Positions 15,413 to 33,585 of a DNA stretch of 64,000 nucleotides are shown here, one piece after another. Source of the DNA: Methylobacter tundripaludum SV96 (GTDB lineage: Bacteria; Pseudomonadota; Gammaproteobacteria; Methylococcales; Methylomonadaceae). How positions within the stretch are numbered: position 1 is the stretch's first letter; each line of letters begins with the position of its first letter. A program made the position numbers and the translations under genes. The notes below the pieces were generated by a model. It had not been told where the DNA came from. It did not search any database and saw only the letters and a list, made by a program, of their open reading frames with translations. The stretch is from the NCBI RefSeq assembly GCF_000190755.2, contig NZ_JH109153.1, positions 434,001 through 498,000 of the forward strand, in the 5' to 3' direction.

Positions 15413-15427
15413 CATGTAACTTATAAC

Positions 15428-17077: not shown

Positions 17078-17394
17078 ATAACCGCGCATAATTAGGTAGC
17101 GGATCAAATCCGCACCGTACTTTATTACTTTCATATCGTGAATAAGGGTGCGTTTAAGTTTAACGCACCCTACCAAGATTACCCGCCGCCCTACCTGGTT
17201 TTCCGTGTGAAGTCCATGGAAGCGGGCATGCCGGCCTGTCGACACATAAATACAGTCCATAGTTTGCATCTAAAAACGCCCATCTCACCGGACAAATCAA
17301 AAAATCAAATCAACGCCCTCTTCCTGGTGCAGCAAGAAGATCGCCAGCCGTTTCTGTTATATTAAGGCGAATTCTTGCTGACCATAATTTCAAT
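17078..17394. other. Intergenic region with a perfect-arm hairpin
   Basis: The 317 bases between trhO and mnmH contain AGGGTGCGTT and AACGCACCCT (17145-17171), a strong hairpin of the GGGTGCG repeat type often dispersed in genomes. It has no U-tract. Nothing else codes convincingly. Confidence 0.5.
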
Positions 17395-18504
17395 ATGAAC
17401 CATCACCCTACCCTTCCCGCTGCCGAGGCTTTTAGTCTGCTTAGCGCCAATAATCAAGTGGCCGTTATTGATGTAAGGTCGGAGGGGGAATATGAAAAGG
17501 CGCACTTCGAAAACACGCTAAACATCCCGATACTATCAGATGCCCATCGCCATGATGTGGGACTGACCTATAAGACCGAAGGTTCGGAAGCCGCCAAGGC
17601 GCTGGGACACAAACTGGTCAGCGGCGATTATAAGGAGAGGATGATTCAGCAATGGTGCGACTCGATTAAAAGCCATCCCCGGCAATCCGCTTTGATCTTT
17701 TGTTGGCGCGGCGGTCTGCGCTCCCGGTTAGCCCAGGATTGGGTCTATCAAAACGGACTTGAAGTTTTCCGGGTCGATTCCGGCTATAAAGGTTTAAGAC
17801 ATGAGGCGCTTAAGGTCATAGAGAATCCCTCCCCCTTTGTCGTCCTTTCCGGCATGACCGGATCGGGCAAAACCCGCTTAATCCATCGGCTCCGGCACTT
17901 TGTCGATCTTGAAGCGCTTGCCGATCATCGCGGCAGCGCTTTCGGAGCCCATATTGGCAAAAGCCAGCCCCAGCAAGCCACGTTTGAAAACAAGTTGGCG
18001 CAAGCGTTATATCAAGTTCCAGATAACTTTGTTCTGGAGGATGAAAGCCCTAATATCGGTCGATGCCACGTGCCTGATCAGTTTTATGCGCGAATGGTCC
18101 CTGCGCCGATGGTGATGATCGAAACACCGGCCCGGGTTCGGGCATTGGAAATTTTTAAGGAATATATCCAAGCGCCTTTTGTAGGCGGCATGGCGTTATA
18201 CGAACTGGAGGCCGGCTTTGCCAAAAATGTCGAACGGATCAGGAACAAGCTGGGCGGTCTGGAGTGCGATAACATTAAGACTATGCTGAGCCAATCCTTC
18301 CAATTCGATGCGCTGAATGAGGCTTACGCAGACGCTTATCTCGACTGGATTGAGCGCCTGCTGACGCATTATTACGACAAACTTTATATCCATTCGCTGT
18401 CATTAAAATCACGAAAGACCTTGTTTCAAGGCACTTGGCAGGACTGTCTGGATTTTTTAGTCGATTCTCAAAAAAGAACTTCCCATCAAGAGATCGATCT
18501 ATAA
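17395..18504 (+). CDS. mnmH: tRNA 2-selenouridine synthase
   Basis: A 369-residue SelU/MnmH, which replaces the sulfur of 2-thiouridine 34 in tRNA for Lys, Glu and Gln by selenium through a geranylated intermediate, with selenophosphate as donor. The rhodanese domain holds the active Cys in IFCWRGGLRS (C103), followed by a P-loop GMTGSGKT (153-160) and the conserved FVLEDESPNIGR. The selenophosphate source, an NDH-SelD fusion, is the next gene on the same strand. No selA, selB or Sec tRNA is seen in the window, so selenium may serve mainly this tRNA modification. Confidence 0.95.
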   Translation: MNHHPTLPAAEAFSLLSANNQVAVIDVRSEGEYEKAHFENTLNIPILSDAHRHDVGLTYKTEGSEAAKALGHKLVSGDYKERMIQQWCDSIKSHPRQSALIFCWRGGLRSRLAQDWVYQNGLEVFRVDSGYKGLRHEALKVIENPSPFVVLSGMTGSGKTRLIHRLRHFVDLEALADHRGSAFGAHIGKSQPQQATFENKLAQALYQVPDNFVLEDESPNIGRCHVPDQFYARMVPAPMVMIETPARVRALEIFKEYIQAPFVGGMALYELEAGFAKNVERIRNKLGGLECDNIKTMLSQSFQFDALNEAYADAYLDWIERLLTHYYDKLYIHSLSLKSRKTLFQGTWQDCLDFLVDSQKRTSHQEIDL

Positions 18505-18514
18505 AAAATAGGGG

Positions 18515-18706
18515 CCACGAAAATCACGAAAGACACGAAAAAAAACAGTCGAAAGAATCTTGTTGCAAGATTTTTCGTAACTATTCAGCGTATCTTGCGC
18601 TGGTTCCCAAGCCGAAGCTTGGGAACCAGCGAATCCGTGTTCTATTGGGCATACGCTGAATAGTTACGATTTTTCGTGCCTTTCGTGCCTTTCGTGCCTT
18701 TCGTGG
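18515..18706. repeat. Dispersed element with CCACGAAA-type terminal repeats, copy 1, carrying nested hairpins
   Basis: The left arm (18515-18543) has iterations of CACGAAA; the right arm (18670-18706) has four tandem copies of TTTCGTGcc ending in TTTCGTGG. Inside, AACTATTCAGCGTAT (18579-18593) is inverted at 18651-18665, and within that CGCTGGTTCCCAAGC (18598-18612) is inverted at 18617-18631. It therefore looks like one repeat inside another. A second copy of the outer element lies at 33586-33750. Confidence 0.7.
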
Positions 18707-18749
18707 ACAATGCTTTTTGCTAGATTCATTATCGGAAATCCTTTGCATT

Positions 18750-21020
18750 ATGAATAAAAATTCAACCCCGATAGTTTCAGACTTGGTTTTGCTCGGCGGC
18801 GGGCATGCCAACATCCAGGTCTTGAAAATGCTGGTTATGAATCCGATAGGCGGGCTTAGGATCACCCTGATATCCGACCAAACGCATTCGCCGTACTCCG
18901 GCATGATACCCGGCTATTTGGCGGGCTATTATTCCTATGAAGAATGCCATTTCGATTTAAGACGCATCTGCGAGGAACTCGGCCAGCGTTTTATCAAGGC
19001 CAAAATCATCGGCATCGATCCGCAACGGAAAAAAATCCAGCTGGAGAACAGGCCGGAAGTTAGTTACGACTGCGCGTCCATTAACGTCGGCATAGCGCCT
19101 CAAAGCCTAGAAAACTCATCGGCCGAGGCGGCGTTAAAGCTTATTCCGCTTAAACCGATTTCCAGGTTTATTGCACATTGGGAGCGATTGATCGTCGATC
19201 TGAAAGCTTATAAAGGCAGCGAATCCCTGCAAATTGCCGTGGTTGGCGCAGGCGCATCCGGCGTTGAAATCTCGATTATCCTGAAAATGTTGATCGACCA
19301 ACATAACTGGAATGCCGAAGTGAGCCTTATCCACCGGCATGAGTTCCTGGTTTCAGCCAAAGATATTTCAGCCCAAAGAAGACTGTCAAAAACGCTCGAA
19401 GAGCTGGACATAAAAGTCTTTAAAAACACCCAGGCGCTTAAAGAACAGGAAAACGGCCTGGTGCTTAAAGACGACAAAGGACTTGCCCAGACTAAAGATT
19501 TTTACCGGGTGCTGACGGCTACGCAAGCCGCCGCGCCGCAGTGGTTTACACACTCGGGGCTACCGGTGAGCCCGGACGGTTTTGTAAAGGTCAACAAAAA
19601 CCTGCTGGTTGAAAACGAACACGATCTGTTTGCCGCCGGTGATTGCATACACTTTTCGCCGTCCCCGCTGAAAAAAGCGGGCGTTTATGCGGTCCGGCAA
19701 GGCATGGTGCTTGAGCACAATATCCGCGCTTTTTTCACCGGAAAAACGGCGTTGAAAACCTTTCATCCCAAGAAAAACGTGCTGTCTTTAATCACCATCG
19801 GCGAGCGCAAAGCCTTGGTTCATCAGGATAGCGCATCAATCCTCAGATGGATGTGGCCTTCATTGTTGTGGACGGTTAAGGACGGCATCGACAGGCGTTT
19901 CATGAAGCGCTTTCAGGCCAAGACTTTCAGCGTAAAGCCCCGGCATTTCGATAACGCCATGCCGATGCCCAAGACCACGCTGGTCCCCGAAGATTGGGAA
20001 AGCAATACCTGCGGCGGCTGCGGCAGCAAACTTGCCGCTTCCACACTAACGCTGAGCTTGAACAAGCTGGACATCCCCACCGACGACGCCGTTTTGCTGG
20101 GCGTTAAGGATGGCGAAGACTGCGCGTTGACCCGGTTTTCCGAGCATACCCTGTGCCTGCAAAGCATCGACCAATTCCGCTCGTTTATTTCGGACCCTTA
20201 CATGCTGGGGCAAATCGCCACCCAACATGCGTTAAGCGACATCTATGCGATGGGCGGCGTTGCCAAGACCGCGCAAGTCGGCCTGACGCTCGGCGCTGCA
20301 AACAAGAAGATTCAGCAGGAAGATATTTTCCAAGTGATGTCGGGCGTGCTGGATATTCTGACCCAAAGCGCCGCCTCCCTGGTCGGCGGCCATACCGGCG
20401 AAGGCGCGGAGCTTGCCATATCACTCGCAGTCCAGGGCGAAGTCGCGCCGGAGCAGGTTTTAAGAAAACAGCTCACTCAACCCGGAAACCGGCTGATACT
20501 GACCAAACCCATCGGCACCGGCGCCATCTTCGCCGCCAATATGCTGGCCCAGGCCAACGGCAAATTGGTGGATCAAGCGCTTTCGAGCATGCTGCAATCC
20601 AACAAAACCGCGATGGAAATCATCAAATCCTTTAGCGTTTCCGGCTGCACGGATATTACCGGCTTCGGCCTGCTAGGCCATGCGTTTGAGATGATGGGGA
20701 AAAATACCGGTCAAGCTTTGGGCGTTAAAATCGACTACAAAGCGATCCCCTTATTCGACGGTGTTGACGAATTATTTGCCAAAGGCTATTACGCTTCTAT
20801 TGCCGAGGAAAACTATCGGTCTTTAAGTGCCGTATTGGATGCAGAGATAAGCAATCAAAAGTTCCCGGCGCTGTTCGATCCCCAAACCAGCGGCGGACTG
20901 TTGTTTTCAGTGCCGTCCGATCAGACGGAAGCGTGTTTAAAAGCCCTGCATCAAAACGGTGTAACCAAGGCCTGCGTGATAGGCGAAGTTATTGATCGGC
21001 GGGAAATAGTCGTGATTTGA
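18750..21020 (+). CDS. selD: NADH dehydrogenase-like/selenide water dikinase fusion
   Basis: A 756-residue fusion. Residues 1 to about 400 form a pyridine nucleotide-disulfide oxidoreductase of the NDH-2 type: FAD loop LLGGGHANIQVL, NAD loop VVGAGASGVEI and the FAD motif LFAAGDCIHF. Residues 410-756 are SelD, which makes selenophosphate from selenide and ATP. The catalytic pair is C424 and K427 in CGGCGSK; Cys, not selenocysteine, occupies the site. Such fusions occur in many bacteria, and the flavoprotein half is thought to supply reduced selenium, which is not settled. I prefer ATG 18750 to an upstream in-frame ATG at 18717, since the former leads straight into the domain. It follows mnmH, its likely consumer. 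Confidence 0.93.
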   Translation: MNKNSTPIVSDLVLLGGGHANIQVLKMLVMNPIGGLRITLISDQTHSPYSGMIPGYLAGYYSYEECHFDLRRICEELGQRFIKAKIIGIDPQRKKIQLENRPEVSYDCASINVGIAPQSLENSSAEAALKLIPLKPISRFIAHWERLIVDLKAYKGSESLQIAVVGAGASGVEISIILKMLIDQHNWNAEVSLIHRHEFLVSAKDISAQRRLSKTLEELDIKVFKNTQALKEQENGLVLKDDKGLAQTKDFYRVLTATQAAAPQWFTHSGLPVSPDGFVKVNKNLLVENEHDLFAAGDCIHFSPSPLKKAGVYAVRQGMVLEHNIRAFFTGKTALKTFHPKKNVLSLITIGERKALVHQDSASILRWMWPSLLWTVKDGIDRRFMKRFQAKTFSVKPRHFDNAMPMPKTTLVPEDWESNTCGGCGSKLAASTLTLSLNKLDIPTDDAVLLGVKDGEDCALTRFSEHTLCLQSIDQFRSFISDPYMLGQIATQHALSDIYAMGGVAKTAQVGLTLGAANKKIQQEDIFQVMSGVLDILTQSAASLVGGHTGEGAELAISLAVQGEVAPEQVLRKQLTQPGNRLILTKPIGTGAIFAANMLAQANGKLVDQALSSMLQSNKTAMEIIKSFSVSGCTDITGFGLLGHAFEMMGKNTGQALGVKIDYKAIPLFDGVDELFAKGYYASIAEENYRSLSAVLDAEISNQKFPALFDPQTSGGLLFSVPSDQTEACLKALHQNGVTKACVIGEVIDRREIVVI

Positions 21021-21051
21021 TTAGTCGGGGAGCATGCAAGCCTTGTAATCC

Positions 21052-22068
21052 TCACTCTTCATTCCTGGTTTGCAGCCAGATCCTGGCCTTTGCGGATAAA
21101 CGGTAGCGTTGCGTCGGGCTTCGAGGAGAACCGGGTTGGGTGCGGTCAAGCCAGCCGCCTTCCATGGCCGGGTTTAGGTAGTTTGCCCTGAAAGTCGGAC
21201 GGTGAGAAAAGCCCAATGCATTCATCAGCTCGGAACCGCTCAGTTCGCTGTTGCCAATGGCCTCAAGCAGCATTTTTACTTGATCGCTTACTTGGTCGCT
21301 TACTTGATCGGTATCGCCCGCCTCGCGCATAGCATCCCGCAGGGCTTGCAACATGAACTCGACAAACGGCGCGGCATCGGCGCGCTCATCCGCTTCGGCC
21401 AGCACTCGATCATATTCGTTCTGCCGTTCGCGAATGATAGTTTCTACCGGCAAATAACCCAGCAAGGGTTTCCACTGACGAAGAATCAGCGTTTGCCACA
21501 ATCGCCCCATGCGACCGTTGCCGTCGGCGAAAGGATGAATAAATTCCAGTTCGTAATGAAACAAACAACTGCTGATTAACGGATGCTCTTCGCTGCGTTT
21601 CAGCCAATCCAGCAAATCGACCATCAAATAAGGCACCCGGTCGGCGGGCGGCGCCATATGCACCAGATGCTCACCCCGAAATATGCCGACACCGCCGGAA
21701 CGAAATACTCCCGGCTGGTCAACCAACATCGACATCAGCAAACCATGCGCAACCAGCAAATCGGCTTCAGAAGCCGGATGCCAGTTATCCATCGCTTCAT
21801 AGGCGGCAAATGCGTTACGAACTTCCTGAATCTCGCGCGGCAGACCCAGCACGCGTTTGCCGTCAATCACCGCAGTCACTTGTTCCAAGGTCAGCGTGTT
21901 GTTTTCAATAGCCAGCGAAGCTTGAATCGTGCGAATCCGGTTTTCCCGGCGCAGCCGCGGCGTCAGGTTTTGCTCGGCCAAAATCGTATAGCGGCCGATC
22001 AGTTCACTGATTTCTGCGACCAAGTTCAGGATGGCTGGGGTGATGGTATAGGGCGGTTGGTAGTTCAT
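21052..22068 (-). CDS. Fic-family adenylyltransferase (class II, self-inhibited)
   Basis: A 338-residue Fic protein that would transfer AMP from ATP to a hydroxyl of a target protein. The catalytic motif HPFADGNGRMGR spans 178-189 (H178). The N-terminal inhibitory helix has SLAIEN (51-56), which fits (S/T)xxxE(G/N) and blocks ATP binding until released. A C-terminal winged-helix follows after a linker with repeated DQVS units (about 250-262). It converges on selD. Its 3' half is duplicated in part at 22944-23440. A truncated antitoxin gene lies just upstream. Confidence 0.92.
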   Translation of the reverse strand: MNYQPPYTITPAILNLVAEISELIGRYTILAEQNLTPRLRRENRIRTIQASLAIENNTLTLEQVTAVIDGKRVLGLPREIQEVRNAFAAYEAMDNWHPASEADLLVAHGLLMSMLVDQPGVFRSGGVGIFRGEHLVHMAPPADRVPYLMVDLLDWLKRSEEHPLISSCLFHYELEFIHPFADGNGRMGRLWQTLILRQWKPLLGYLPVETIIRERQNEYDRVLAEADERADAAPFVEFMLQALRDAMREAGDTDQVSDQVSDQVKMLLEAIGNSELSGSELMNALGFSHRPTFRANYLNPAMEGGWLDRTQPGSPRSPTQRYRLSAKARIWLQTRNEE

Positions 22069-22149
22069 GTGAGCCGGTTTAGTTTTTCAACCATAAAATA
22101 CAGGAAAATGGATTCTTTTATAAAAATCCAATTTATCAGCACCGTTCCA

Positions 22150-22214
22150 GTCTCGTAGGGTACGCTGCGCGTACCTTTCAATGTTCGATGGTACGCACAG
22201 CGTACCCTACATGG
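22150..22214. repeat. GTACGC palindromic repeat, copy 1
   Basis: GTAGGGTACGCTGCGCGTAC and its near inverse GTACGCACAGCGTACCCTAC flank a short AT-richer loop. The same element recurs at 22390-22424 and 23262-23326. This copy interrupts the antitoxin gene on the minus strand. Confidence 0.8.
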
Positions 22215-22361
22215 CTCCCGCAATGCCACCAATTCAGCGGCAGCTAATTCCGGCGCAGGCTTCATCTCAACGTCGTGAGTTCTCAACGTGCGCTTGCCTT
22301 GGCGCTGCTCCGCCAAAGCATCAAAACCTTCACTGAGTTCATCGAACAAATTTCTTTTCAT
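22215..22361 (-). pseudogene. Truncated HigA-type antitoxin/XRE regulator gene
   Basis: A GAGG-preceded ATG at 22361 opens MKRNLFDELSEGFDAL and continues with RQGKRTLRTHDVEMKPAPEL, the characteristic N-terminus of a family of helix-turn-helix antitoxins. After 49 codons the reading enters the GTACGC palindrome and then unrelated sequence, so the helix-turn-helix is missing. No toxin gene is seen next to it. The gene was probably cut by the repeat insertion or by the rearrangement at this locus. Confidence 0.65.
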
Positions 22362-22389
22362 CGTCTTGCCTCTTTAAACATAGCTTTCA

Positions 22390-22424
22390 GTCTCGTAGGA
22401 TACGCTGTGCGTACCCTACGAGAC
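22390..22424. repeat. GTACGC palindromic repeat, copy 2
   Basis: GTCTCGTAGGATACGC and GCGTACCCTACGAGAC form a nearly perfect 35-bp palindrome that abuts the exact left end of the duplicated selD segment. Confidence 0.8.
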
Positions 22425-22943
22425 TTCGGCCTGCTAGGCCATGCGTTTGAGATGATGGGGAAAAATACCGGTCAGGTGGGTGTTAAAATCGACTACAAGG
22501 CGATCCCCTTATTCGATGGTGTTGACGAATTATTCGCCAAAGGCTATTACGCGTCTATTGCTGAGGAAAATTATCGGTCTTTAAGCGCCGTGCTGAGTGC
22601 CGAGGTCAATGCTGTTGACTTAAGCTGCACAAAGCCCTCTCCAGAGGGAGAGGGTTGGGTGAGGGGAAATCAGAATAAGGAAGAAAGCTTATTTGCCCCC
22701 CCTCATCCCAACCTTCTCCCTGAGGGAGAAGGAGTCCGCACCCTTAAGTCAACAGCATTGAGTGCCGATGTGAGCCATCAAAAGTTCCCGGCGCTGTTCG
22801 ATCCTCAAACCAGCGGCGGGCTGTTGTTTTCAGTGCCATCCGATCAGGCGCAGGAATGTCTAAATGCCCTGCATCAAAATGGAGTAGCCAAGGCTTGTGT
22901 TATAGGCGAAGTGATTGATCAGCGGGAAATAGTTGTGATTTGA
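22424..22943 (+). pseudogene. Duplicated 3' end of selD carrying a MITE
   Basis: From CTTCGGCCTGCTAGGCC on, this repeats 20663-21020, the C-terminal third of SelD, to the same stop. It differs by scattered substitutions and by a 152-bp insertion (22608-22759) that keeps the frame open. The frame runs from 22275 through the palindrome into the selD copy, but lacks the ATP-binding and catalytic parts, so it cannot be an active enzyme. The similarity is high enough for a fairly recent duplication. Confidence 0.85.
22608..22759. mobile_element. 152-bp MITE with perfect 17-bp terminal inverted repeats
   Basis: AATGCTGTTGACTTAAG (22608-22624) is exactly inverted at 22743-22759. The nine bases GAGTGCCGA occur just outside each end (22595-22603 and 22760-22768), a possible target duplication. 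The centre holds CCCTCTCC/GGGAGAGG-type palindromes. The element is absent from the original selD copy, which proves that it inserted after the duplication. Confidence 0.8.
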
Positions 22944-23259
22944 TTAGTCGGCGAGGATGCAAGCCTTGTAATCCTCACGCTTCATTCCTGGTTTGCAGCC
23001 AGATCCTGGCCTTTTCGGATAAACGGTAGCGTTGCGTCGGGCTTCTAGGAGATCCGGGTTGGGTGCGGTCAAGCCAGCCGCTTTCCATGGCAGGGTTTAG
23101 GTAGTTTGCCCTGAAAGTCGGACGGTGAGAAAAGCCCAATGCATTCATCAGCTCGGAACCGCTCAGTTCGCTGTTGCCAATGGCTTCAAGCAGCATTTTT
23201 ACTTGGTCGCTTACTTGGTCGGTATCGCCCGCCTCGCGCATAGCATCCCGCAGGGCTTG
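22944..23259 (-). pseudogene. Duplicated 3' end of the fic gene
   Basis: This repeats 21021-21348 and encodes the C-terminal winged helix of the Fic protein (88 codons readable, 22975-23241) without the catalytic domain. One DQVS unit is missing compared with the intact gene. The copy ends abruptly at the third GTACGC palindrome. Confidence 0.85.
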
Positions 23260-23261
23260 TA

Positions 23262-23326
23262 GTCTCGTAGGGTACGCTGTGCGTACCTTTCAACATTCGA
23301 TGGTACGCACAGCGTACCCTACATGG
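23262..23326. repeat. GTACGC palindromic repeat, copy 3
   Basis: This is the same element as at 22150-22214, with nearly identical sequence including the loop (TTTCAAC-TTCGATGG), inserted within the second fic fragment. Confidence 0.8.
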
Positions 23327-23334
23327 CTTAGTCG

Positions 23335-23440
23335 GTAACTTGATCGCTTACTTGATCGGTATCACCCGCCTCGCGCATAGCATCCCGCAGGGCTTGCAAC
23401 ATGAACGTAACAAACGGCGAGGCATCGGTGAAGGGGAAAA
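23335..23440 (-). pseudogene. Third, short fic fragment
   Basis: Bases 23338-23440 repeat the fic segment around 21281-21385 (CGCATAGCATCCCGCAGGGC and flanks), including part already present in the fragment before the palindrome. The palindrome is therefore flanked by an overlap of fic sequence, not by a simple insertion. Confidence 0.7.
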
Positions 23441-23592
23441 TAAATCCAGTCATGTACGCTACGCGTACTGCATAGTGTATGTCTAGCACGGCAAACCGGA
23501 TATTTGAGATCATGATATGATACGTTAGGCTTTAAGGTATGCGCAGAGTATCTACTGGGCTTATATTTTTTCCTTATGTGGTGATTTAATAA
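23441..23592. other. Junction and promoter region of the candidate nuclease gene
   Basis: About 150 AT-rich bases between the fic fragment and the 790-residue gene. GTACGCTACGCGTAC (23454-23468) is a shortened relative of the GTACGC palindrome. No clear ribosome-binding site precedes the ATG at 23593. Confidence 0.4.
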
Positions 23593-25965
23593 ATGGCATC
23601 AGGCACGCTAACTATTCGCGCACGTCCGCTTCGCATCGCTTTCTTGGTAGATCCTAAGGATCGACACGCTCTTTTACGTGCTATCGAAGCCAGTACTTTT
23701 CTTTGGGGCGGCACATGTAACCCCATTATTCCCGTCTACACACGCACACCTAGAACTTGGGAGCCTCAGAGAATACGACGCTTACCTCAGCCTGAAGAAA
23801 TTATCACAGGCTATATCGACGCCTTTGACCCGGATTTGATCGTACCTGTTGGGCTCTGTGAAAGTAGAGAATTCCAGGTAGGGCATCGTGAAATAATCAA
23901 GATAAATGAATTAATCGGAGACATAGCTGAAACGCATACACCTCAATTTGGCTTAGGATTTTTAGAGGTACTTGCAGATTTTGTCGATAAGGAATTCAAG
24001 TTCAAACGAAATGATGACTTGACTCTCATGTTTCCAAAGTTACCGAAGACACACGGACTTTTCTTAGCCAGTGTTTTTGGGAAATTACCAGCGCAAGCTG
24101 AGCAAGTCATTGACAGGTATTACGGGAAACATCTTGAGGTCAAATTTCCCCAACCAACATTGGATAATTTTGTTGAGTTACTTGAGCCTCTTAATGTTTT
24201 CCCACGAAGACTTACGTCTTGGTCTTTGGAGCACCAACCTCTTCGTGAACCTCAGCTTTTCTTTTGTAATGCCAACAATCCTCTGGACATAATAGATTAT
24301 TGGAATCTGCGTGCGGCGGGATACTACGTTGTACCCATACCCATTCAAATTTCCGGTTTGGAAACAGTAAAGAAGTTTGCCCGCGATTTTATCGAAGAAA
24401 ACTATCGACCATACCGGCACAATCCAAACATGTTTAATCGGACAATAATTCAGAAATCACGAACGGTGTCTGAAGATGATGTGAAGACATTTTGCGACTC
24501 GCTAAATATCTCACTCGGCGAAAATAAACAAGAACCGAAGTACTCGTTAAGATGGTGGTATCCGAGACTTTGGGATGCATGGGCACGTGAAAACACTCAA
24601 GAAGGAGTGGAAAAACCTTATGCGCATAAAGTTGATATACAAATAGCTGATGATCAAGAGCGATTGGAGTTGCGTTCGTATGACCCCAAAATCAAATCAT
24701 TCCAAGAATATTCAGGCGAACCCCGATTCGCAAACGATTTTTCCTTCCGGTTCTATGATTCAAAAGAGCCTATGGCGGAAGTTTTCCCCGAGAGTAGTAG
24801 GGAGCTATCTTCGGCAATTGGTATCGGCTACCGCAATTGGCGATTTTCTAATTCAGGTCCAATATTCCTTGCTTACAATGAACAAGATTTGATCTTCTTA
24901 GAATTGCCTCGTGCTGAGTCTGTGATGATTGAGTGGCTAAGGGAGCTAGGTTGGAAGGTAAGCTTATCTCCATCTGGACGAATGGCTGCACAACTTGTCA
25001 AACAACTTGGAGGTATCTCGGGTATTTGGTGGTTAGGCCACAAAGGCTTGATTGAACTATTAGCTGAACTAGAGAAAGAAAGCGGGATGCCTCGACCAGC
25101 TGTTATAGGGCGACTCAATCAAATGAAAACGAAACATGGCCTTGATTTTGACAGCGAAATTATCCTAGAAAGGCTTATTAAAACAAGTGCCATGAAATTG
25201 GGCGCCAAAATTCAGTGCCCTGTTTGCACACGGCATAACTGGTACGAACTGGATGCATTGAATTACCAAACGGATTGCCGATTTTGCTTATCCAATTTTG
25301 ATGTCCCTGTACAATCACCAAAAAATATAGAGTGGACTTATCGCGCTCACGGACCTTTTGCCAGCTCCGTTTCGCAAGGAGCGTTTAGCGTTTTACTGGT
25401 TCTCAAATTTCTGAAAGGAAACTTCACATCGGACAATAAAGTTACACCTCTTTTTAGCTATACCGCCAAAAAAGATGAACATGAATTAGAGGCTGATCTT
25501 ACCTGTTTGTACAGTCCCTCAAATTGGCGAGTGTCCAGCCCACAGATTGTTCATGCCGAATGTAAAAGCTTTAATGGGTTTGAGATTGCCGACATTGATA
25601 GAATGGATTTTTTAGCGCGCGAGTTTCCGGGTTCAGTATTGATCTTCGCAACACTTAAGGAAACACTTTCTTCAGCAGAGATTATTTCGATCAAGAAAAT
25701 GGTCGAATCGCAACGATCCAAGCGCCTTCTCGGGCAAGTAAACAGCCCTGTCATTATACTTACGGGGACAGAACTATTTTCACCTCGTGGTGCGCCCGAA
25801 TGCTGGCAGGGAAAAGGTGGAGCTCTTAACAAATTCAGCGATAACCGAATCGGATGGGAAGATTTGTTTTCCATTGCAGATGCCACGCAGCAGCTATATC
25901 TTGGATTGCCAAGTTGGCATGAATTCACAGAAGCAGAATGGAATAAAAAGCGGGATACAAAATAA
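23593..25965 (+). CDS. Large unrecognised protein with zinc ribbon and PD-(D/E)XK-like nuclease motif
   Basis: A 790-residue protein that I cannot assign to a named family. The N-terminus (LRIAFLVDPKDRHALLRAIEASTFLWGG) looks like the first strand and helix of a Rossmann-like fold. Around residues 465-530 is a helical stretch (GISGIWWLGHKGLIELLAELE) that could be a winged helix. A zinc ribbon has C542/C545 and C562/C565. After it, ELEADLTCLYS (D635) and IVHAECKSFNGF (E656-C-K658) match the D...ExK core of PD-(D/E)XK nucleases, with a following helix (ADIDRMDFLAREF) as in that fold. The gene looks AT-richer than its neighbours and sits alone beside a rearranged repeat zone. A solitary defence nuclease is my best guess; a recombination or repair enzyme is possible. 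Confidence 0.7.
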   Translation: MASGTLTIRARPLRIAFLVDPKDRHALLRAIEASTFLWGGTCNPIIPVYTRTPRTWEPQRIRRLPQPEEIITGYIDAFDPDLIVPVGLCESREFQVGHREIIKINELIGDIAETHTPQFGLGFLEVLADFVDKEFKFKRNDDLTLMFPKLPKTHGLFLASVFGKLPAQAEQVIDRYYGKHLEVKFPQPTLDNFVELLEPLNVFPRRLTSWSLEHQPLREPQLFFCNANNPLDIIDYWNLRAAGYYVVPIPIQISGLETVKKFARDFIEENYRPYRHNPNMFNRTIIQKSRTVSEDDVKTFCDSLNISLGENKQEPKYSLRWWYPRLWDAWARENTQEGVEKPYAHKVDIQIADDQERLELRSYDPKIKSFQEYSGEPRFANDFSFRFYDSKEPMAEVFPESSRELSSAIGIGYRNWRFSNSGPIFLAYNEQDLIFLELPRAESVMIEWLRELGWKVSLSPSGRMAAQLVKQLGGISGIWWLGHKGLIELLAELEKESGMPRPAVIGRLNQMKTKHGLDFDSEIILERLIKTSAMKLGAKIQCPVCTRHNWYELDALNYQTDCRFCLSNFDVPVQSPKNIEWTYRAHGPFASSVSQGAFSVLLVLKFLKGNFTSDNKVTPLFSYTAKKDEHELEADLTCLYSPSNWRVSSPQIVHAECKSFNGFEIADIDRMDFLAREFPGSVLIFATLKETLSSAEIISIKKMVESQRSKRLLGQVNSPVIILTGTELFSPRGAPECWQGKGGALNKFSDNRIGWEDLFSIADATQQLYLGLPSWHEFTEAEWNKKRDTK

Positions 25966-26037
25966 TAAGCATCTAACAGCAGGAAAGGGATTTCTTCAAA
26001 TATTCAGCCCCGTAGATAGAGTGACAGCTTTTCGTTA

Positions 26038-26067
26038 CCCGACATTTTGATGTATGTAAATGTCGGG
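26038..26067. terminator. Hairpin between convergent genes
   Basis: CCCGACATTT pairs perfectly with AAATGTCGGG across a 10-base loop, between the stop of the candidate nuclease gene and the stop of the GH30 gene. It may terminate from both sides, but no long U-tract follows. Confidence 0.45.
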
Positions 26068-26091
26068 CATAAACGACTTCCCCAACCGTTA

Positions 26092-27441
26092 TTAAAAAAC
26101 AAAAGTCTTGATCCCCCGAGCCGGTATTGAGGCTTTAACCTGTAATCCCTGACTCTTTAGCAGCACGAAGTCAATTGCCTGCTCGGTGCGGTTCAAGGCC
26201 ACTACGGCCACGGTCCCATCAACATTCAAAAATGCGCTTGCTTCAAGACTGTCCAGGGTTTTGGCGCAGGCCACCCGGCGAGCCCCCGGCCGGATGAATC
26301 GGGAGAAATGACCGATGTAGTAATAAGAACTTTGATAGCGTATTTCTCCGGCTTGAGTATCGGCAATAATCGGCGCGCTACAGAAATTGCCGACATGGTT
26401 GGGGCCGCCCGTTTCATCGAGAACCATGTTCCAGTCCACCCATGCCTCTGTCCAGCGGTTAAGATCGTTTATCATCGAGTGGGCATAACGCTCTCCGGTA
26501 TCCCACGAACCGAGATGCGGCCCGCTTTCCTGGCAGCCCTCCGTGAAAATAAGGTGTTTATCGGGATAGGCGTCATGAGTCAGCTGCACGTTGTCGAAGT
26601 GATCCCCGCAATACCAGTGGAAACCGACGCCCCAGACATAGTGTGCTGCCTTCGGATCGTCCAGCACGACCTTGGCCCGCTCAAACATCCGGTCGCGATT
26701 GTGGTCCCAGACAATCACTTTAACATTGCCAAGCCCGGCATCATGGAGGGTTGGGCCAAGATGATCCCTGACAAAATCCCGCTCTTCTTCGCCGGTGTAA
26801 ATACAGGAGTCCCAGGTTTGCGTGGCTTCCGGCTCGTTCTGCACCGTCAGCCCCCAAATCGGTATGCCCTCCTGCCCGTATTCCTGAATGTAACGGACAT
26901 AGTAATCCGCCCAGGCTTGGCGATATTCCGGCTTAAGCTTGCCGCCGTTATTCATCATGCCGTTGGTTTTCATCCAGGCCGGAGGACTCCAGGGCGAAGC
27001 GAACAGCTTTAATTTACCGCCGGACAAATCGATGGCCTCGCGAATCATGGGAATCAGGGCTTGCCGGTCATGCTCGATGCTGAAATGTTTAAGATCGACA
27101 TCGCCGTCCACTTCCGTATAGGCATAATTTCCCAGCGAGAAGTCGCAGCTATTGATGTGGGTTCGGCATAAGCTATAGGCATTGCCGGTGTCTGGAGAGA
27201 AATAGGCTTCCAGAATTTCTTGCCGTAAGTGGCTTGGCATTTTGTCTAAGGTTACCGCTGCCGCTTCTGTGAAAGCTCCTCCGAAGCCCTGAATTTCTTG
27301 AAACTTAACGGTCGTGTCTATGAACACAGAGGGATCGGAAATATTCGTGCCGGGTTCGAACGCTATCGGCGCCAGTTTCGACAGTCGATAGGCGGTGTCA
27401 CGAGCGGTACAAAATTGCTTTACCAGCCGCTGTTTTGTCAT
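26092..27441 (-). CDS. GH30 glycoside hydrolase (glucosylceramidase-like)
   Basis: A 449-residue (beta/alpha)8 glycosidase of family GH30. The acid/base Glu is E203 in TVQNEPEATQTW and the nucleophile is E301 in IFTEGCQESG. The N-terminus has the typical EIQGFGGAFTEAAAVTL, and the C-terminal beta-domain ends GIKTFVF. GH30 enzymes cleave beta-glucosides, beta-1,6-glucans or xylans; the specificity is not fixed by these motifs. No signal peptide is present, so the enzyme is probably cytoplasmic, which is unusual for a polysaccharide-degrading GH30. It is a single-gene unit with no transporter next to it. Confidence 0.92.
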   Translation of the reverse strand: MTKQRLVKQFCTARDTAYRLSKLAPIAFEPGTNISDPSVFIDTTVKFQEIQGFGGAFTEAAAVTLDKMPSHLRQEILEAYFSPDTGNAYSLCRTHINSCDFSLGNYAYTEVDGDVDLKHFSIEHDRQALIPMIREAIDLSGGKLKLFASPWSPPAWMKTNGMMNNGGKLKPEYRQAWADYYVRYIQEYGQEGIPIWGLTVQNEPEATQTWDSCIYTGEEERDFVRDHLGPTLHDAGLGNVKVIVWDHNRDRMFERAKVVLDDPKAAHYVWGVGFHWYCGDHFDNVQLTHDAYPDKHLIFTEGCQESGPHLGSWDTGERYAHSMINDLNRWTEAWVDWNMVLDETGGPNHVGNFCSAPIIADTQAGEIRYQSSYYYIGHFSRFIRPGARRVACAKTLDSLEASAFLNVDGTVAVVALNRTEQAIDFVLLKSQGLQVKASIPARGIKTFVF

Positions 27442-27545
27442 TTTGCTAACTCCACTTGTTGAGTGTTACTGAAGACGATAATCGCCAGACCTAGCTATTG
27501 AGAATCATCTAATGGATTTTTTCTAAATTAGTCAGTGATCATTAC

Positions 27546-27780
27546 GCTGGTTCCCAAGCTCCAGCTTGGGAACCCAGTTAACGAAGCTCCAGCTTCGCGA
27601 GACGGGAAGCTGGAGCTTGGGAACTAGCGCTCACTAAAATCCTTAACTTAATGGCAGTGACGCGCCGCATGGGAATGCATTGCTGGACGCGCTACGTTCC
27701 GTATACGCAAGGTACTGTTCGTGACTCGCGGCGCAGCGCGCCTTGACTGCGTTCCCACGCAGCGCGTGGGAACGCGAATC
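27546..27780. repeat. Composite repeat island (GGTTCCCAAGCT type), copy A
   Basis: GGTTCCCAAGCT/AGCTTGGGAACC (27549-27574), then GAAGCTCCAGCTTC and AAGCTGGAGCTTGGGAACTAG, followed by a second family with GCGGCGCAGCGCGCC and TTCCCACGCAGCGCGTGGGAA (27719-27775). Related blocks occur at 35321-35610, 56089-56247 and 18598-18631. No gene lies in this 360-base gap. Confidence 0.8.
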
Positions 27781-27802
27781 GAAAACGCACCCTTAACAAA
27801 GC

Positions 27803-28816
27803 CTACCTCAACACCCCCGCAGGGCTGGAATAACTATCCAACACCTGCACATAATTGGCCCGTTCGTAAGCGCTGGGATCAATGGCGTGTTGCTGGCTGA
27901 CGCTGCCTTTTAGTTGATTGACCGACTCGTATTCATGCTCGGCCAGCCATTGTTCCATTTCAGCCAGGATTTCGCTTAAACGGCCTGTGCCGTGCTTTAG
28001 CAATACGCTGCACAGATGCACCACGTCGGCTCCGGCCAACAGCGCTTTCAATACATCCGGCGTCTGGTGAAAGCCGCCGGTTACCGCAAGCGACAGCTTG
28101 GTCCGTCCATACAGCAACGCTGTCCAGCGTATGCGCAACAACGCTTCCGCCGAGGATGACAGCTCCAGTTTCGGCACGACTTCCAGCGTTTCCAAATCAA
28201 TATCGGGTTGGTAAAAACGGTTGAATATCGCCAAGCCATCGGCTCCGGCGGCTTCCAGGCGCTTGGCAAAATGAATCGGCGAACTGAACTGCGAAGAAAG
28301 CTTCATCACAATCGGCACACTGACTTGGCCTTTCAATTCCTGCAATATGTCCAGATAGCGTTGTTCGACCGCGTCGCCGCTTTCATCGCTATTTGCGGCC
28401 AGATGATAGATATTCAGCTCCAGCGCGTCAGCGCCCGCCTGCTGCAATTGCTTGCCGTACTCGACCCAGCCGCTTAAGGAAGTGCCATTCAAACTGGCAA
28501 TAACCGGAATCGCCAGAGCGGACTTGAGTGTTTGCAAATGCTCCAGATACTGCTCCTGATAGGTTTGGATGTTATCCGGCATCGGATGAAACGAATCCGA
28601 CTCATTATGGCCTATCGATTGGTTATAAAAAAACCGCTCCATTTGATGTTCCTCGGCTTCGATTTTTTCTTCGAACAGCGAATACATCACCAGCGCCGAT
28701 GCGCCTGCGTCTTCCAGTCTGCGCGCGCTGTCAACGTCTCTACTTAACGGCGACGCCGACGGCACCAAGGGGTTAGCCAGCTTCAAGCCTAAATAATCAG
28801 TCGTTAAATCAACCAT
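27803..28816 (-). CDS. Dihydroorotate dehydrogenase-like flavoprotein
   Basis: A 337-residue TIM-barrel protein of the DHODH family: MVDLTTDYLGLKLANPLVPSASPLS at the start, IPVIASLNG, ALELNIYHLA, VPIVMKLS and the phosphate-binding AVTGGFHQTPDVLKALLAGADVV. It is the paralogue commonly found next to nifJ rather than the pyrimidine enzyme PyrD, and its substrate is not established. The start overlaps the nifJ stop region by eight bases, so the two are one operon with nifJ first. Confidence 0.85.
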   Translation of the reverse strand: MVDLTTDYLGLKLANPLVPSASPLSRDVDSARRLEDAGASALVMYSLFEEKIEAEEHQMERFFYNQSIGHNESDSFHPMPDNIQTYQEQYLEHLQTLKSALAIPVIASLNGTSLSGWVEYGKQLQQAGADALELNIYHLAANSDESGDAVEQRYLDILQELKGQVSVPIVMKLSSQFSSPIHFAKRLEAAGADGLAIFNRFYQPDIDLETLEVVPKLELSSSAEALLRIRWTALLYGRTKLSLAVTGGFHQTPDVLKALLAGADVVHLCSVLLKHGTGRLSEILAEMEQWLAEHEYESVNQLKGSVSQQHAIDPSAYERANYVQVLDSYSSPAGVLR

Positions 28817-31800
28817 TGTCGATCTCCTTGGCAGTTTCGCTTTTGAGTTGGGCTTTCACCGCTGAAACGCTGGTCGATTCGTTCCAGGCCAGCTCAGACA
28901 GTTGTTTGTAATAATGGTAGCGGTTTTTAACATCCTGCTGCGCTTGCTCCAGGAAGCGCTCCGCGTCTTCGGGATGCGTTTGCCACAACATGCTGAAACG
29001 GGTTTCGGTTTTGACGAAATCGCGGTAAGGAATGGACGGTTCCGCAGAATCCAGATGCATCGGGTTCTTGCCCTGTTTGATTTTGCCGGGGTCGAATCGG
29101 AACAACGGCCAATGCCCGCTTTTCACCGCCAGGTTTTGCTGCCGATGATTGTTCGATAGATCCACGCCGTGTGCGATACACGGTGCGTAAGCGATGATGA
29201 TGGACGGGCCGTCATGGGCTTCGGCTTCCAAAAACGCATTCAGGGTTTGGGTATCTTTACCTGCGTAAGCGACATGGGCGACATAGACATTGCTGTAATC
29301 CATCGCCAGCAATGCCAGGTCTTTTTTCGCCGTGGCTTTGCCGCCTGCGGAGAATTTCGCCACTGCGCCTAACGGTGTAGCTTTGGAAGTTTGCCCGCCG
29401 GTATTGGAATAGACCTCGGTATCCAGCACCAGAATATTGACATTGCGCCCGCTGGCCAGGACATGGTCGAGACCACCAAAACCAATATCGTAAGCCCAGC
29501 CATCGCCGCCGATAATCCAGACGCTTTTTTTGCACAAGCTGTCCGCTAACTGGAGCAGTGTTTGTGCGCCCTGCCCGGTCAAGGACGACAAATGTTGTTT
29601 AAGTGCGGCAACCCGCTCGCGCTGCTCGTAAATCCCCGCTTCATCAGACTGGTCGGCGTTCAGTATCGTATCGACCAATTCGCCGCCTAACGGTTCGCGC
29701 AACGAGGCCAGCAACTCCTTGGCGTACTCGTTTTGCTTGTCGAGCGCGATGCGCATGCCCAAGCCGAATTCCGCATTGTCTTCGAATAATGAATTGCTCC
29801 ACGCAGGCCCGCGGCCTTCGGCGTTTTTAGTCCACGGTGTGGTTGGCAGATTGCCGCCGTAAATTGAGGAACATCCGGTCGCATTGGCAACCACCATGCG
29901 GTCTCCAAACAATTGCGAAGCCAGTTTTATGTACGGCGTTTCGCCGCAGCCCACGCACGCGCCCGAAAATTCGAACAGCGGCTGCAATACCATCGAACCT
30001 TTGATGGTGTTGGTTTTCAAAAGCCTGCGATCGTATTCGGGTATAGACAAAAAGAAATCCCAATTGTCACGTTCTGTTTCGCGCAGCGGCGGCTGGGGCC
30101 GCATATTGATGGCTTTGCGGCTGGCGTTGGATTTATCCCGAATCGGGCAAATATCGACGCATAGCGTACAGCCGGTGCAATCTTCCGGCGCGACCTGATA
30201 GGTGATTTCCAAGCCGGCAGGAAAATCCTTGCCCAGCATCGGCGCATGTTTGAAAGTTTCGGGGGCTTTTGCCAAAACCTCAGTCGAATAAATTTTGCTG
30301 CGTATGACCGAATGAGGGCAAACCATTACGCATTTGCCGCATTGCGTACACAAATCGGTTTCCCAGACCGGAATTTCCAGGGCCAAATTGCGTTTCTCAT
30401 AAGCCGCCGTGCCGGTTGGAAACGTACCGTCAATCGGCATCGCACTGACCGGCAATGCATCGCCCCTGCCTGCAATAATTTCACCGGTTACCCGTTTAAC
30501 AAAATCGGGCGCTGCATCGCTGATCCTGGACTGAATCTCGAACTGACTGCTAACCTCTGTTGGCAGTGGTACTGCATGCAAACAAGCCAGCGTTTCGTCG
30601 ATGGCTTTGAAATTCAGCTCGACGATATGCTGGCCTTTTTTGCCGTAGGTCTTTTCGACCGCGTGTTTAATCGCAGTAATCGCCTGTTCCTCCGGCAACA
30701 CGCCGGATATCGCAAAGAAGCAGGTCTGCATGATGGTGTTGATGCGTTTGCCCATGCCGCTTTTTTCGGCCACTTCATAACCGTCGATCACATAAAAACG
30801 GATTTTTTTGGCTATCATTTGCCGCTGCATTTTAGCGGGCAGCGATGCCCAAGCCTGCTCCGCCGACTCCGGCGAGTTCAGTAAAAACACCGCGTTTTCC
30901 GCCGCATTGGCGAGCATGTCGTAGCGTTCAAGGAAAATCGTCTGATGGCAGCCGATAAAATTAGCGTCGTTTTCACCAATCAGGTAAGTCGAGCGTATCG
31001 GCTTGGGACCGAAGCGCAAATGCGAGACGGTAATCGCACCGGATTTTTTCGAGTCGTAAACGAAATAGCCCTGGGCGTTCAAATCGGTCGCTTCGCCGAT
31101 AATTTTAATGGTGTTTTTATTGGCGCTGACCGTGCCGTCGCTGCCCAGGCCGTAAAACATCGCCTGAAAAGTATCGGCGTGGGCGTCGGTGCGATAACTT
31201 GCATCCCAATCCAGGCTGGTGTGCGTGACATCGTCGTGGATGCCGATGGTGAAATTATTTTTCGGTTGCGCCTGTTTCAATTCGTCGAAAATCGCCTTGA
31301 TCATGCCGGGCGTGAATTCCTTTGAAGAAAGACCGTAACGGCCGCCGACCACTTTCGGCAGCACCGAAAACTTAGCCGCGCCGCCGATAAAATCCTGAGC
31401 GAGCGCGCCAAGCACGTCCTTATACAGCGGCTCGCCATCCGCGCCCGGCTCTTTGGTGCGGTCCAGCACCGCGATTTTGCGGCAGGTTGCCGGAAGCGCC
31501 GCTAACAGGCTGGCGGCATCGAAGGGTCGGTATAAACGCACTTTAAGCAGGCCGACCGATTCGCCCTGACGATTAAGATAATCCAGCGTCTCCGCGACGG
31601 CCTCCGCGCCTGAACCCATCATCACGATGACGCGCTCGGCGTCCGGCGAACCCAGATACTCAAACAAGCGATAAGAGCGGCCGGTCAGCTTGGCAAAGCG
31701 ATCCATTGCAGCCTGCACGATTCCCGGCATCGCCTGATAATAGGCATTGACCGATTCCCTGGCCTGAAAATACACATCGGGATTCTGGGCCGTGCCGCGC

Positions 31801-32447
31801 AGCACCGGGTTATCGGGCGATAAGGCCCGACTTCGGTGCGCCACGACCCACTCTTCGTTAATCATGGCCCGCATCACATCGTCATCCAGCAGACTAATCT
31901 TGGCGATTTCGTGCGAGGTCCTGAATCCGTCGAAAAAATGCATCAGCGGAATGCGGCCTTCCAGCGCTGCGGCATGGGCGATCAGCGCAAAGTCCATGAC
32001 TTCCTGCGGCGAGTTGGAACAGAGCATGCCGAAACCGGTCATACGCGCCGACATCACATCGCTATGGTCGCCGAAAATCGACAAGCCCTGACACGCCAGC
32101 GAACGGGCGGCGATATGGAATACCGTCGGCGTCAGCTCCCCGGCAATTTTGTACATATTGGGCAGCATCAGCAGCAAGCCCTGGGAGGCGGTAAACGTGG
32201 TCGCCATCGACCCGGCCTGCAACGCGCCGTGAATGGCCCCGGCTGCACCGGCCTCGCTTTGCATTTCGGTCACTTGCGGCACCGTCCCCCATAAATTGAC
32301 CTGTCCGCGAGACGACCATTCATCGGCCCATTCGCCCATATTCGACGACGGCGTTATGGGATAGATCGCGATGACTTCGTTGAGTTTGTGGGCTACCGTA
32401 GCGGCGGCCTGATTTCCATCGATCGTAAGTGTTTGCTGACTTTGCAT
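28809..32447 (-). CDS. nifJ: Pyruvate:ferredoxin (flavodoxin) oxidoreductase
   Basis: A 1212-residue single-chain PFOR that converts pyruvate and CoA to acetyl-CoA and CO2 and reduces ferredoxin or flavodoxin. The N-terminal thiamine-binding part begins TIDGNQAAATVAHKLNEVIAIYPITPSS. The iron-sulfur domain has CTQCGKCVMVCPHSV and CTGCTLCVDICP for two [4Fe-4S] clusters, and a further cluster uses CVGCGETPY. The C-terminal diphosphate site is IIGGDGWAYDIGFGGLDHVL. The length is normal. It implies low-oxygen or fermentative carbon flow, or electron supply for nitrogen fixation; no nif genes are in the window. The DHODH-like gene overlaps its 3' end. Confidence 0.96.
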   Translation of the reverse strand: MQSQQTLTIDGNQAAATVAHKLNEVIAIYPITPSSNMGEWADEWSSRGQVNLWGTVPQVTEMQSEAGAAGAIHGALQAGSMATTFTASQGLLLMLPNMYKIAGELTPTVFHIAARSLACQGLSIFGDHSDVMSARMTGFGMLCSNSPQEVMDFALIAHAAALEGRIPLMHFFDGFRTSHEIAKISLLDDDVMRAMINEEWVVAHRSRALSPDNPVLRGTAQNPDVYFQARESVNAYYQAMPGIVQAAMDRFAKLTGRSYRLFEYLGSPDAERVIVMMGSGAEAVAETLDYLNRQGESVGLLKVRLYRPFDAASLLAALPATCRKIAVLDRTKEPGADGEPLYKDVLGALAQDFIGGAAKFSVLPKVVGGRYGLSSKEFTPGMIKAIFDELKQAQPKNNFTIGIHDDVTHTSLDWDASYRTDAHADTFQAMFYGLGSDGTVSANKNTIKIIGEATDLNAQGYFVYDSKKSGAITVSHLRFGPKPIRSTYLIGENDANFIGCHQTIFLERYDMLANAAENAVFLLNSPESAEQAWASLPAKMQRQMIAKKIRFYVIDGYEVAEKSGMGKRINTIMQTCFFAISGVLPEEQAITAIKHAVEKTYGKKGQHIVELNFKAIDETLACLHAVPLPTEVSSQFEIQSRISDAAPDFVKRVTGEIIAGRGDALPVSAMPIDGTFPTGTAAYEKRNLALEIPVWETDLCTQCGKCVMVCPHSVIRSKIYSTEVLAKAPETFKHAPMLGKDFPAGLEITYQVAPEDCTGCTLCVDICPIRDKSNASRKAINMRPQPPLRETERDNWDFFLSIPEYDRRLLKTNTIKGSMVLQPLFEFSGACVGCGETPYIKLASQLFGDRMVVANATGCSSIYGGNLPTTPWTKNAEGRGPAWSNSLFEDNAEFGLGMRIALDKQNEYAKELLASLREPLGGELVDTILNADQSDEAGIYEQRERVAALKQHLSSLTGQGAQTLLQLADSLCKKSVWIIGGDGWAYDIGFGGLDHVLASGRNVNILVLDTEVYSNTGGQTSKATPLGAVAKFSAGGKATAKKDLALLAMDYSNVYVAHVAYAGKDTQTLNAFLEAEAHDGPSIIIAYAPCIAHGVDLSNNHRQQNLAVKSGHWPLFRFDPGKIKQGKNPMHLDSAEPSIPYRDFVKTETRFSMLWQTHPEDAERFLEQAQQDVKNRYHYYKQLSELAWNESTSVSAVKAQLKSETAKEIDNG

Positions 32448-32889
32448 TAGAAACCCTCATGGAACAAAAAAAGTGTAACCACCCTCTTTTATAATAGTTT
32501 TAAAGGCTTGGAAGTTACGCATTAACTGACAGTACAGAATATGGATATTGAAAACAACCATAACCAACCGTGATAAAAAACAAGCCGTCCGTTCGACGAC
32601 AGAGTACCGCTTGCCGATGTATTTTTATTGAGCAAACGCCCATCCGTCAATTATTGTCGGTGAGCGGAAGTTATCACTATTTCATCCGGCAGCCTAAGTA
32701 TGCCAGAGTTTTTCCGGGTTCTGTCGCAAATATTCAAAGGCCCCAAAACCGGGCATGACTGTCTTTTTCTCAGTATGACCGCCATTACGGACTTTTGTGT
32801 CAGCATACTGGACATAAAAACCGGCGGAGAGAATAATCTCTTTCAAGTAACGAGAATCTTTGCAACCCTTTCACATTGAGATATAAGCC
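32448..32889. other. Intergenic region between nifJ and rpiA, possible IS3 stump
   Basis: About 440 bases between divergent genes. A short frame (32570-32758) contains TPIRQLLSVSGSYHYFIRQP, which faintly recalls the N-terminus of IS3-type orfB transposases. The match is too weak to call an element. Promoters for both genes should lie here. Confidence 0.3.
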
Positions 32890-33576
32890 ATGAATGATAA
32901 AGAACGTATTGCCCAACATGCCGCCAATCAAGTGGCGGACGGGATGCTGGTAGGACTTGGCACCGGCTCGACTGCAAATTGTTTTATCGAGGAACTGGCG
33001 CAGCGTAGCCGCGAACAGGGGCTTAAAGTGACCACTGTCTCCAGCTCAATTGCGAGTGCGATTAAGGCGCAACAACTCGGCTTACCGGTGCTGGGTTTCG
33101 ATCAGGTCAGTCATGTTGATCTTTATGTCGATGGCGCCGATGAGGTGTCGCCGGAATTAACCTTGCTCAAAGGCCAAGGGGCTGACTTGGTACGCGAAAA
33201 ACTATTGGCAACCGCCAGTAAGCAATTTTTAGTATTGGTTGAATCCAACAAGCTGGTCGAGCGCATCGGCCAGCATTTTGCGATCCCCATCGAAGTGATG
33301 CCTTTTGCCTGGCAACTGGTTAAAAAGCAGCTGGAAGCGATCGGCGGCCAAGGCGATTTACGCCAAAACGCCAATAAAAACGGTTATGCGATAAGCTCGC
33401 ATGGCAGTCTAATATTGGATATGCGCTTTGCCGAGCATATCGATGCTGAAGCACTCAACGACATTTTAAACAGTATCCCCGGCATCGTTGAGCATGGTAT
33501 TTTTTACGCGCTGGCAACGACGGTTTTAATCGGCGTTAACGGTCAAGTACAAGAGCGGCAGGCTGCTAATCTTTAA
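32890..33576 (+). CDS. rpiA: Ribose-5-phosphate isomerase A
   Basis: A 228-residue RpiA that interconverts ribose 5-phosphate and ribulose 5-phosphate in the pentose phosphate pathway. Conserved blocks are present: GLGTGSTANCFIEEL, DLYVDGADEVSPELTLLKGQGADLVREKLLA, and the C-terminal GIVEHGIFYALATTVLIG. The length is as expected (about 220). It stands alone, followed by a dispersed repeat. Confidence 0.96.
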   Translation: MNDKERIAQHAANQVADGMLVGLGTGSTANCFIEELAQRSREQGLKVTTVSSSIASAIKAQQLGLPVLGFDQVSHVDLYVDGADEVSPELTLLKGQGADLVREKLLATASKQFLVLVESNKLVERIGQHFAIPIEVMPFAWQLVKKQLEAIGGQGDLRQNANKNGYAISSHGSLILDMRFAEHIDAEALNDILNSIPGIVEHGIFYALATTVLIGVNGQVQERQAANL

Positions 33577-33585
33577 CTGCACTGT

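Follow-up and report, generated by a model that had tools for sequence, protein, structure and literature searches.

Defence nucleases with a PD-(D/E)XK core and varied extra domains are already known and common, since PD-(D/E)XK domains occur in 13 of the 31 additional validated systems of DefensePredictor, in which the parts outside the core vary extensively (PMC13092281). These systems share the core with the protein described here; the likeness is drawn from their description, and their sequences may overlap with our family. The closest working model is Shedu (SduA), which on paper is built like our protein, with an N-terminal part and a PD-(D/E)XK nuclease. A review describes the N-terminal domains of Shedu as diverse, with a clamp at the N-terminus binding DNA ends and the PD-(D/E)XK domain introducing nicks at a fixed distance (PMC12904381). 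CARF-PD-(D/E)XK nucleases (Cdn1 and its kin) have a similar layout of sensor plus nuclease, and Cdn1 bound to cA4 was the second fold match of our C-terminal model. MspJI-type restriction enzymes, which we take to be modification-dependent, have the PD-(D/E)XK core in common with our protein and gave its best PDB fold match, although this match is weak (E 0.02), the family has no sequence match to them in the libraries and their domains come in a different order.

The gene lies in the window, by which we mean the whole 64,000-nucleotide stretch of DNA that was analysed, where it starts with ATG and runs as one open frame of 790 residues (Table 1). We consider it likely that its product alone makes up an anti-phage (or anti-plasmid) system, with a C-terminal DNase that the N-terminal half would probably hold inactive until a cue is received. 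A predicted DNA-cutting module, together with frequent sites in prophages, on plasmids and beside defence genes, makes the protein probably a one-gene weapon against phages. No Shedu or DUF4263 match was found in Pfam or PADLOC, either for the window protein at E 10 or for 13 members of its family at E 0.1. No library match speaks for placing the family in Shedu, and neither a zinc ribbon nor a WGG/WNLR module is known to us from that system. Nor did the window protein match anything significantly in Pfam, PADLOC, NCBIfam or PHROGs, its single library match, in Pfam, being a cysteine-rich model that covers residues 540-573 at E 0.38. When 13 members (P0015 and P0016 left out) were scanned against Pfam, PADLOC and NCBIfam nothing below E 0.01 was seen, and the best matches, each confined to one member, had E 0.012 (PADLOC), 0.023 (Pfam) and 0.063 (NCBIfam). 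The preliminary description, made from the sequence of the window, had known no named family with this order of parts, and these libraries, with PHROGs for the window protein only, indeed name none. No description of the family or of its N-terminal module was found in the open-access literature searched either. Within these libraries and papers the family is undescribed, and we read its members as defence nucleases that work as single genes.

Table 1. Coordinates of the gene, its predicted parts and its flanks in the window.
Feature	Position	Strand	Basis
Left flank: selD (+), Fic gene 21052-22068 (-), short ORF 22065-22361 (-)	18747..22361		ORFs, PADLOC, congener comparison
Duplicated selD and Fic 3'-end parts, broken by palindromic repeats	22424..23428		Sequence comparison
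Stretch without counterpart in congener regions, only the 790-aa gene inside	23429..26005		blastn of 18000-27500 against 7 congener regions
Predicted defence nuclease gene, 790 aa	23593..25965	+	ORF and homologues
N-terminal module, residues 11-90	23623..23862	+	Invariant R11-P12, D23, W38-G39-G40, N43-P44, D81, G87 (11 sequences)
Second N-terminal motif, D232-x4-W237-N238-L239-R240	24286..24312	+	L239 not fully invariant
Mainly helical region, residues 440-530	24910..25182	+	Conserved S459, G462, Q467; mostly G473-G474
Zinc ribbon, C542-x2-C545 ... C562-x2-C565	25216..25287	+	15/15 full-length members; C-terminal model
Predicted PD-(D/E)XK core, residues 597-687 (helix, strands, helix, strand)	25381..25653	+	AlphaFold2 model m63bee13ad064; weak Foldseek E-values
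E633-x-D635, presumed metal-binding acidic residues	25489..25497	+	15/15 full-length members
E656-x-K658, presumed catalytic pair	25558..25566	+	E 15/15, K 14/15 full-length members
Right flank: 449-aa gene	26092..27441	-	Matched in 11/23 same-genus genomes, own included

Seven residues had been named beforehand, the four cysteines of a zinc ribbon (C542/C545, C562/C565) and D635 and E656-x-K658 of a nuclease. In an alignment of 11 sequences (A3), where the relatives are 19-61% identical to the window protein and two of the sequences are about 90% alike, all seven fall within the set of 43 positions, out of 790, that are invariant (hypergeometric p ~9e-10, in a count that ignores relatedness). 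K658 is the sole invariant lysine of 46, and of 11 cysteines none but the four of the ribbon is invariant; E633 and D667 are likewise invariant, and R290 is present in 10 of the 11 sequences. With the four distant members included, the cysteines, D635 and E656 are kept in every one of the 15 full-length members and K658 in all except P0013, which has E-A-T instead. Within the distant clade itself the cysteines, E633, D635 and E656 were found in 4/4 and K658 in 3/4. Both the zinc ribbon and the nuclease motif were thus confirmed at the residues proposed, the latter also in distant homologues.

The C-terminal half is predicted to have the topology of a PD-(D/E)XK nuclease. In the AlphaFold model of residues 440-790 (pLDDT 82.9, pTM 0.82, 8 sequences) helix 597-608 is followed by strands 623-627, 630-633, 636-640 and 651-658, helix 665-677 and strand 682-687, and the alpha-beta-beta-beta-alpha-beta core of the superfamily is present. 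D635 is placed in the hairpin and E656/K658 on the next strand, before the second core helix, which is where PD-(D/E)XK enzymes have their D (hairpin) and their E-x-K (following strand). The best rows of a Foldseek search against the PDB were MspJI (E 0.02), Cdn1 (0.046), SfsA (0.05 and 0.09), a second chain of MspJI (0.14) and EndoMS (0.14), with TM-scores of 0.18-0.33 by query length. We take all six, SfsA being represented by two entries, to be PD-(D/E)XK proteins. HamA and Mus81 followed further down, mixed with many unrelated chains (ClpP, ATPase and others), and the best 50 of the 999 rows held no PDB match at E <0.001. Two viral predicted structures, listed with no described function, matched the model at E 6e-4 and 9e-4, and sequence searches of the PDB gave nothing useful (best E 0.69 and 0.78). 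The topology of the C-terminal model agrees with the fold that had been proposed, although it has no significant PDB match.

The N-terminal 440 residues contain two conserved motifs, WGG-x2-NP and D-x4-WNLR, and are unlike any domain in the libraries searched. By hhalign the module at residues 11-90 is homologous to that of the distant clade, where the D and the WN of the second motif are kept too. A Rossmann-like N-terminus, as claimed in the preliminary description, is at most compatible with the full-length AlphaFold model, which is of low confidence (mean pLDDT 41, 4 sequences) and is the only place where residues 11-90 have a beta-alpha-beta-alpha-beta pattern. In the mechanism that we propose, the C-terminal half would be a metal-dependent PD-(D/E)XK DNase cutting invader DNA, and the adjoining zinc ribbon and helical region probably help to hold the DNA. 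The N-terminal 440 residues probably keep the nuclease off and release it on binding to a feature of the invading DNA or of the infection, and protection from phage would be the outcome of cleavage upon activation. Since no second gene is present in the stretch without counterpart in congeners, we favour direct attack on invader DNA and not a signalling scheme.

Full-length relatives were found in L001, L002 and L003 (61%, 57% and 37% identical, respectively), in genome G243, on a Photobacterium and a Bradyrhizobium plasmid and on four IMG/VR contigs, on each of which the phage genes were checked. The distant clade comes from G265, G467, a Burkholderia glumae plasmid and a Piscirickettsia plasmid, and hhalign joined these four sequences to the 11-sequence family over 641 columns, N-terminus included (99.7%). 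Partial or split copies lie at contig ends in G196 and G152, and the copy on a Sphingomonas plasmid spans two short annotated genes. A match in G181 (E 7e-4) was dropped as unrelated because it is limited to the zinc ribbon of a protein that is radical-SAM-like by reading.

The distribution of the gene is rare and patchy. Among 61 relatives it occurs in the source genome only, and matches, each time including this genome, were seen in 6 of 398 genomes of the phylum (one judged spurious), in 2 of 321 of the class (the other being a decayed copy in G688) and in 2 of 237 of the taxonomic family (the other being the distant G467). In the class of G243 the only match among 289 genomes was G243 itself. 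Each query matched 1-4 of 72,556 plasmid records, two members searched against 50,697 phage records gave no match, and further scans of viral contigs returned only contigs already found, or no relative. In the tree, which the program flags for long branches in the distant rows, the window protein groups with proteins from a Gammaproteobacteria MAG and from Syntrophobacteraceae (100/100), then with Chloroflexi (98/98), and G243, whose class differs from that of the window's genome, stands beside the Photobacterium plasmid and a viral contig. This grouping suggests horizontal transfer of the family. The source genus is probably one of methanotrophs, and two AMO/pMMO matches were found in the window's genome.

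In the chromosome the gene occupies a variable slot that bears defence genes in congeners. On the left stands a gene that we take to be selD, and the right-flank gene is presumably glucosylceramidase-like. The latter was matched by DNA in 11 of the 23 same-genus genomes, own included, while the selD protein had some match in all 23, many of them weak paralogues only. Seven of the ten congener regions with a right-flank match were compared (G006, G010 and G021 were left out). Homology ended on the left at 23221-23428 and restarted on the right at 26006-26094, so that the stretch without counterpart holds the 790-aa gene only. Four congeners (G012, G008, G011 and G001) had both flanks on one contig, and G019, G007 and G013 had the right flank only in the stretch compared. 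The cargo of the slot was unlike in all four contigs with both flanks. G012 carries a nucleotidyltransferase (PDC-S09, E 1e-31) and a candidate-defence ATPase pair (PDC-M31A, E 1e-71; PDC-M31B, E 2e-8). In G008 the slot is filled by a type II-like restriction system made up of a C5 methylase, a protein containing HNH, and Vsr. The cargo of G011 includes a 785-aa protein (L062 3335-5692) with no Pfam or PADLOC match, beside a gene whose RelE match is below the Pfam cut-off. In G001 the slot holds a 555-aa protein that has a NucS_C domain (E 8e-7) and matches PDC-S11 weakly.

The left flank of the gene is duplicated and broken by repeats, as the preliminary description had it: 3'-end parts of selD and of the Fic gene recur, those of the latter within 22975-23428, and a palindromic repeat, probably a REP or MITE-like element, is found at 22149-22216, 22383-22425 and 23261-23328. 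At up to 2 mismatches, the 21-base arm of this repeat is matched 41 times in the whole genome, and its reversed control not at all. The duplicated selD fragment also contains an insert of about 156 bases (22606-22761) with perfect 19-nt inverted ends, MITE-like in kind. The Fic gene, which matches PADLOC SoFic at E 4e-42, is itself a candidate defence gene. The short ORF next to it had been labelled a truncated antitoxin, and this label is unconfirmed because the ORF has no Pfam match. The claim that the gene is AT-richer than its neighbours was correct, with a GC content of 43.4% (GC3 39%) compared to 49-55% in nine neighbouring genes, and GC was as low in 6 of 617 segments of the same length (100-base steps, segments overlapping the gene counted in). 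The promoter/terminator scan found fewer promoter-like sites (two) than shuffles did (5.4), and it found no terminator on the + strand.

We examined the surroundings of the family in 18 loci: the window; L001, L002, L003; L005, L006; L021-L024; L015, L016, L017/L018 (one genome on two contigs, counted as one locus), L019, L020; and L033, L034, L035. A second B. glumae plasmid (H7) and the surroundings of G688 were left out. A sign of defence or mobility (plasmid or viral contig, variable defence slot, or restriction, defence, toxin-antitoxin or integrase neighbours) was present in 16 of the 18 loci. Nine loci come from plasmid or viral collections, so the mobile location is partly a product of sampling; among the nine from elsewhere seven carry such a sign, namely the window, L001, L002, L015, L016, L019 and L020. 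On the viral contigs the member lies between transposition genes and an endolysin gene, with a PDC-S31 match adjoining (L021), near the contig end and some 6 kb beyond a tail gene (L022), between Rz-like spanin and baseplate genes (L023), or beside a portal gene and adjoining a SIR2-STAND gene (L024). An AriA-like ATPase (E 3e-30) adjoins the member in L002. Consistent housekeeping neighbours, which would have refuted the preliminary description, were not seen: two loci have no clear sign, and in L016 the sign is a toxin-antitoxin pair only, among neighbours that are otherwise housekeeping by reading. The gene had also been called solitary, which is true of the window, where it is the single gene in the stretch without counterpart, and not of the family in general, since in several genomes the member directly follows restriction or toxin-antitoxin genes.

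These surroundings are also in line with an abortive-infection nuclease, whose autoinhibition would be relieved by infection and whose indiscriminate cutting of the cell's DNA or RNA would stop the host before phage release. The large N-terminal module fused to the nuclease, the viral-contig and restriction-cluster contexts and the toxin-antitoxin pairs that adjoin members in three loci agree with this. The pairs are HigB with an HTH gene directly upstream in L016, a convergent pair downstream in L034 and PrlF-YhaV in L006, where the plasmid region also has an abortive-infection family gene. Nothing that we found separates indiscriminate from invader-directed cutting, and we rate this possibility as rather unlikely. 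Unlikely, too, is a type IV-like restriction enzyme, a sub-case of the one-protein system, in which the N-terminal half or the zinc ribbon would read modified bases and the PD-(D/E)XK domain would cut invader DNA that carries them, with no methylase needed. The single gene, the lack of a methylase in the stretch without counterpart and the MspJI match point to it, but at E 0.02 and TM 0.20 this match indicates at most a shared nuclease core, and PADLOC mREase_IV was matched neither by the 13 members (E 0.1) nor by the window protein.

Tight junctions in some loci raise the question whether the protein is an accessory part of the adjoining type I restriction or toxin-antitoxin systems, with no system of its own. 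In L001 the member lies in a type I restriction cluster, 3' of a REase_I gene, and overlaps an hsdS-like gene by 1 nt (read by eye). In L006 it begins 3 nt after YhaV and in L016 66 nt after the HTH antitoxin gene, and in L020 type I restriction genes stand upstream on the same strand by reading. However, the partners vary from locus to locus, no partner is present in the window or at several other loci, and one gene only fills the window's stretch without counterpart, which leaves this explanation improbable. Hardly more can be said for a nuclease working on behalf of the mobile element, in recombination, repair or the upkeep of a plasmid or prophage, instead of defence. Members do occur on plasmids and viral contigs, and tyrosine recombinases are found nearby in L015, L019 and L033 (three upstream in the last), but the slot in the window is chromosomal, no integrase or transposase was recognised on reading the ORFs listed for 15000-36000, a tRNA is absent from 15000-35000, and the family is rare among the plasmid records. 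In L019, a 1226-aa protein (3530-7210) with no Pfam or PADLOC match lies directly upstream of P0013. Very improbable is a CRISPR ancillary nuclease with a CARF-type N-terminus switched on by cyclic oligoadenylate: cA4-bound Cdn1 is the second PDB row and a strong Cas10-palm match in the window's own genome (E 1e-34, G000 C1:482516-482923) suggests a type III CRISPR system there, but member genomes have no consistent Cas10 (cut-off passed in 3 of 9, barely in one, with a control that gives a signal in E. coli as well; G243, G265, G467 and G196 had no match), the family has no CARF match at E 0.001 (PADLOC CARF_PDDEXK matches 1 of 13 members, E 0.026), and no cas genes were recognised on reading the gene lists of the loci, without a dedicated search.

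Some observations weigh against a role in defence. By reading, L003 (Chloroflexi) has ordinary neighbours with no clear sign of defence or mobility; the same applies to G152, where an upstream DUF2130 gene (L018 1506-2789, -) overlaps the start of the member by 4 nt and the neighbours are otherwise housekeeping. Three of the five plasmids opened were typed non-mobilizable, and P0013 lacks the catalytic lysine. Taken together, our results nevertheless support the one-gene defence nuclease of the preliminary description, as none of the findings on fold, motif conservation or housekeeping neighbours refuted it. More tentatively, and with less than even confidence, the WGG-x2-NP/WNLR module might be a new sensor of phage infection or of a foreign-DNA state, which in one chain with a PD-(D/E)XK nuclease would form a separate defence system that prophages, plasmids and defence slots would have carried through Pseudomonadota, Syntrophobacteraceae and Chloroflexi.

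Defence nucleases encoded by a single gene are compact systems, and it is an open question how they avoid cutting host DNA. The family offers a small testable case of a nuclease telling self from invader, because its N-terminal half is recognised by no library searched, and, within one genus, the slot adjoining selD and the Fic gene is a place to seek further systems.
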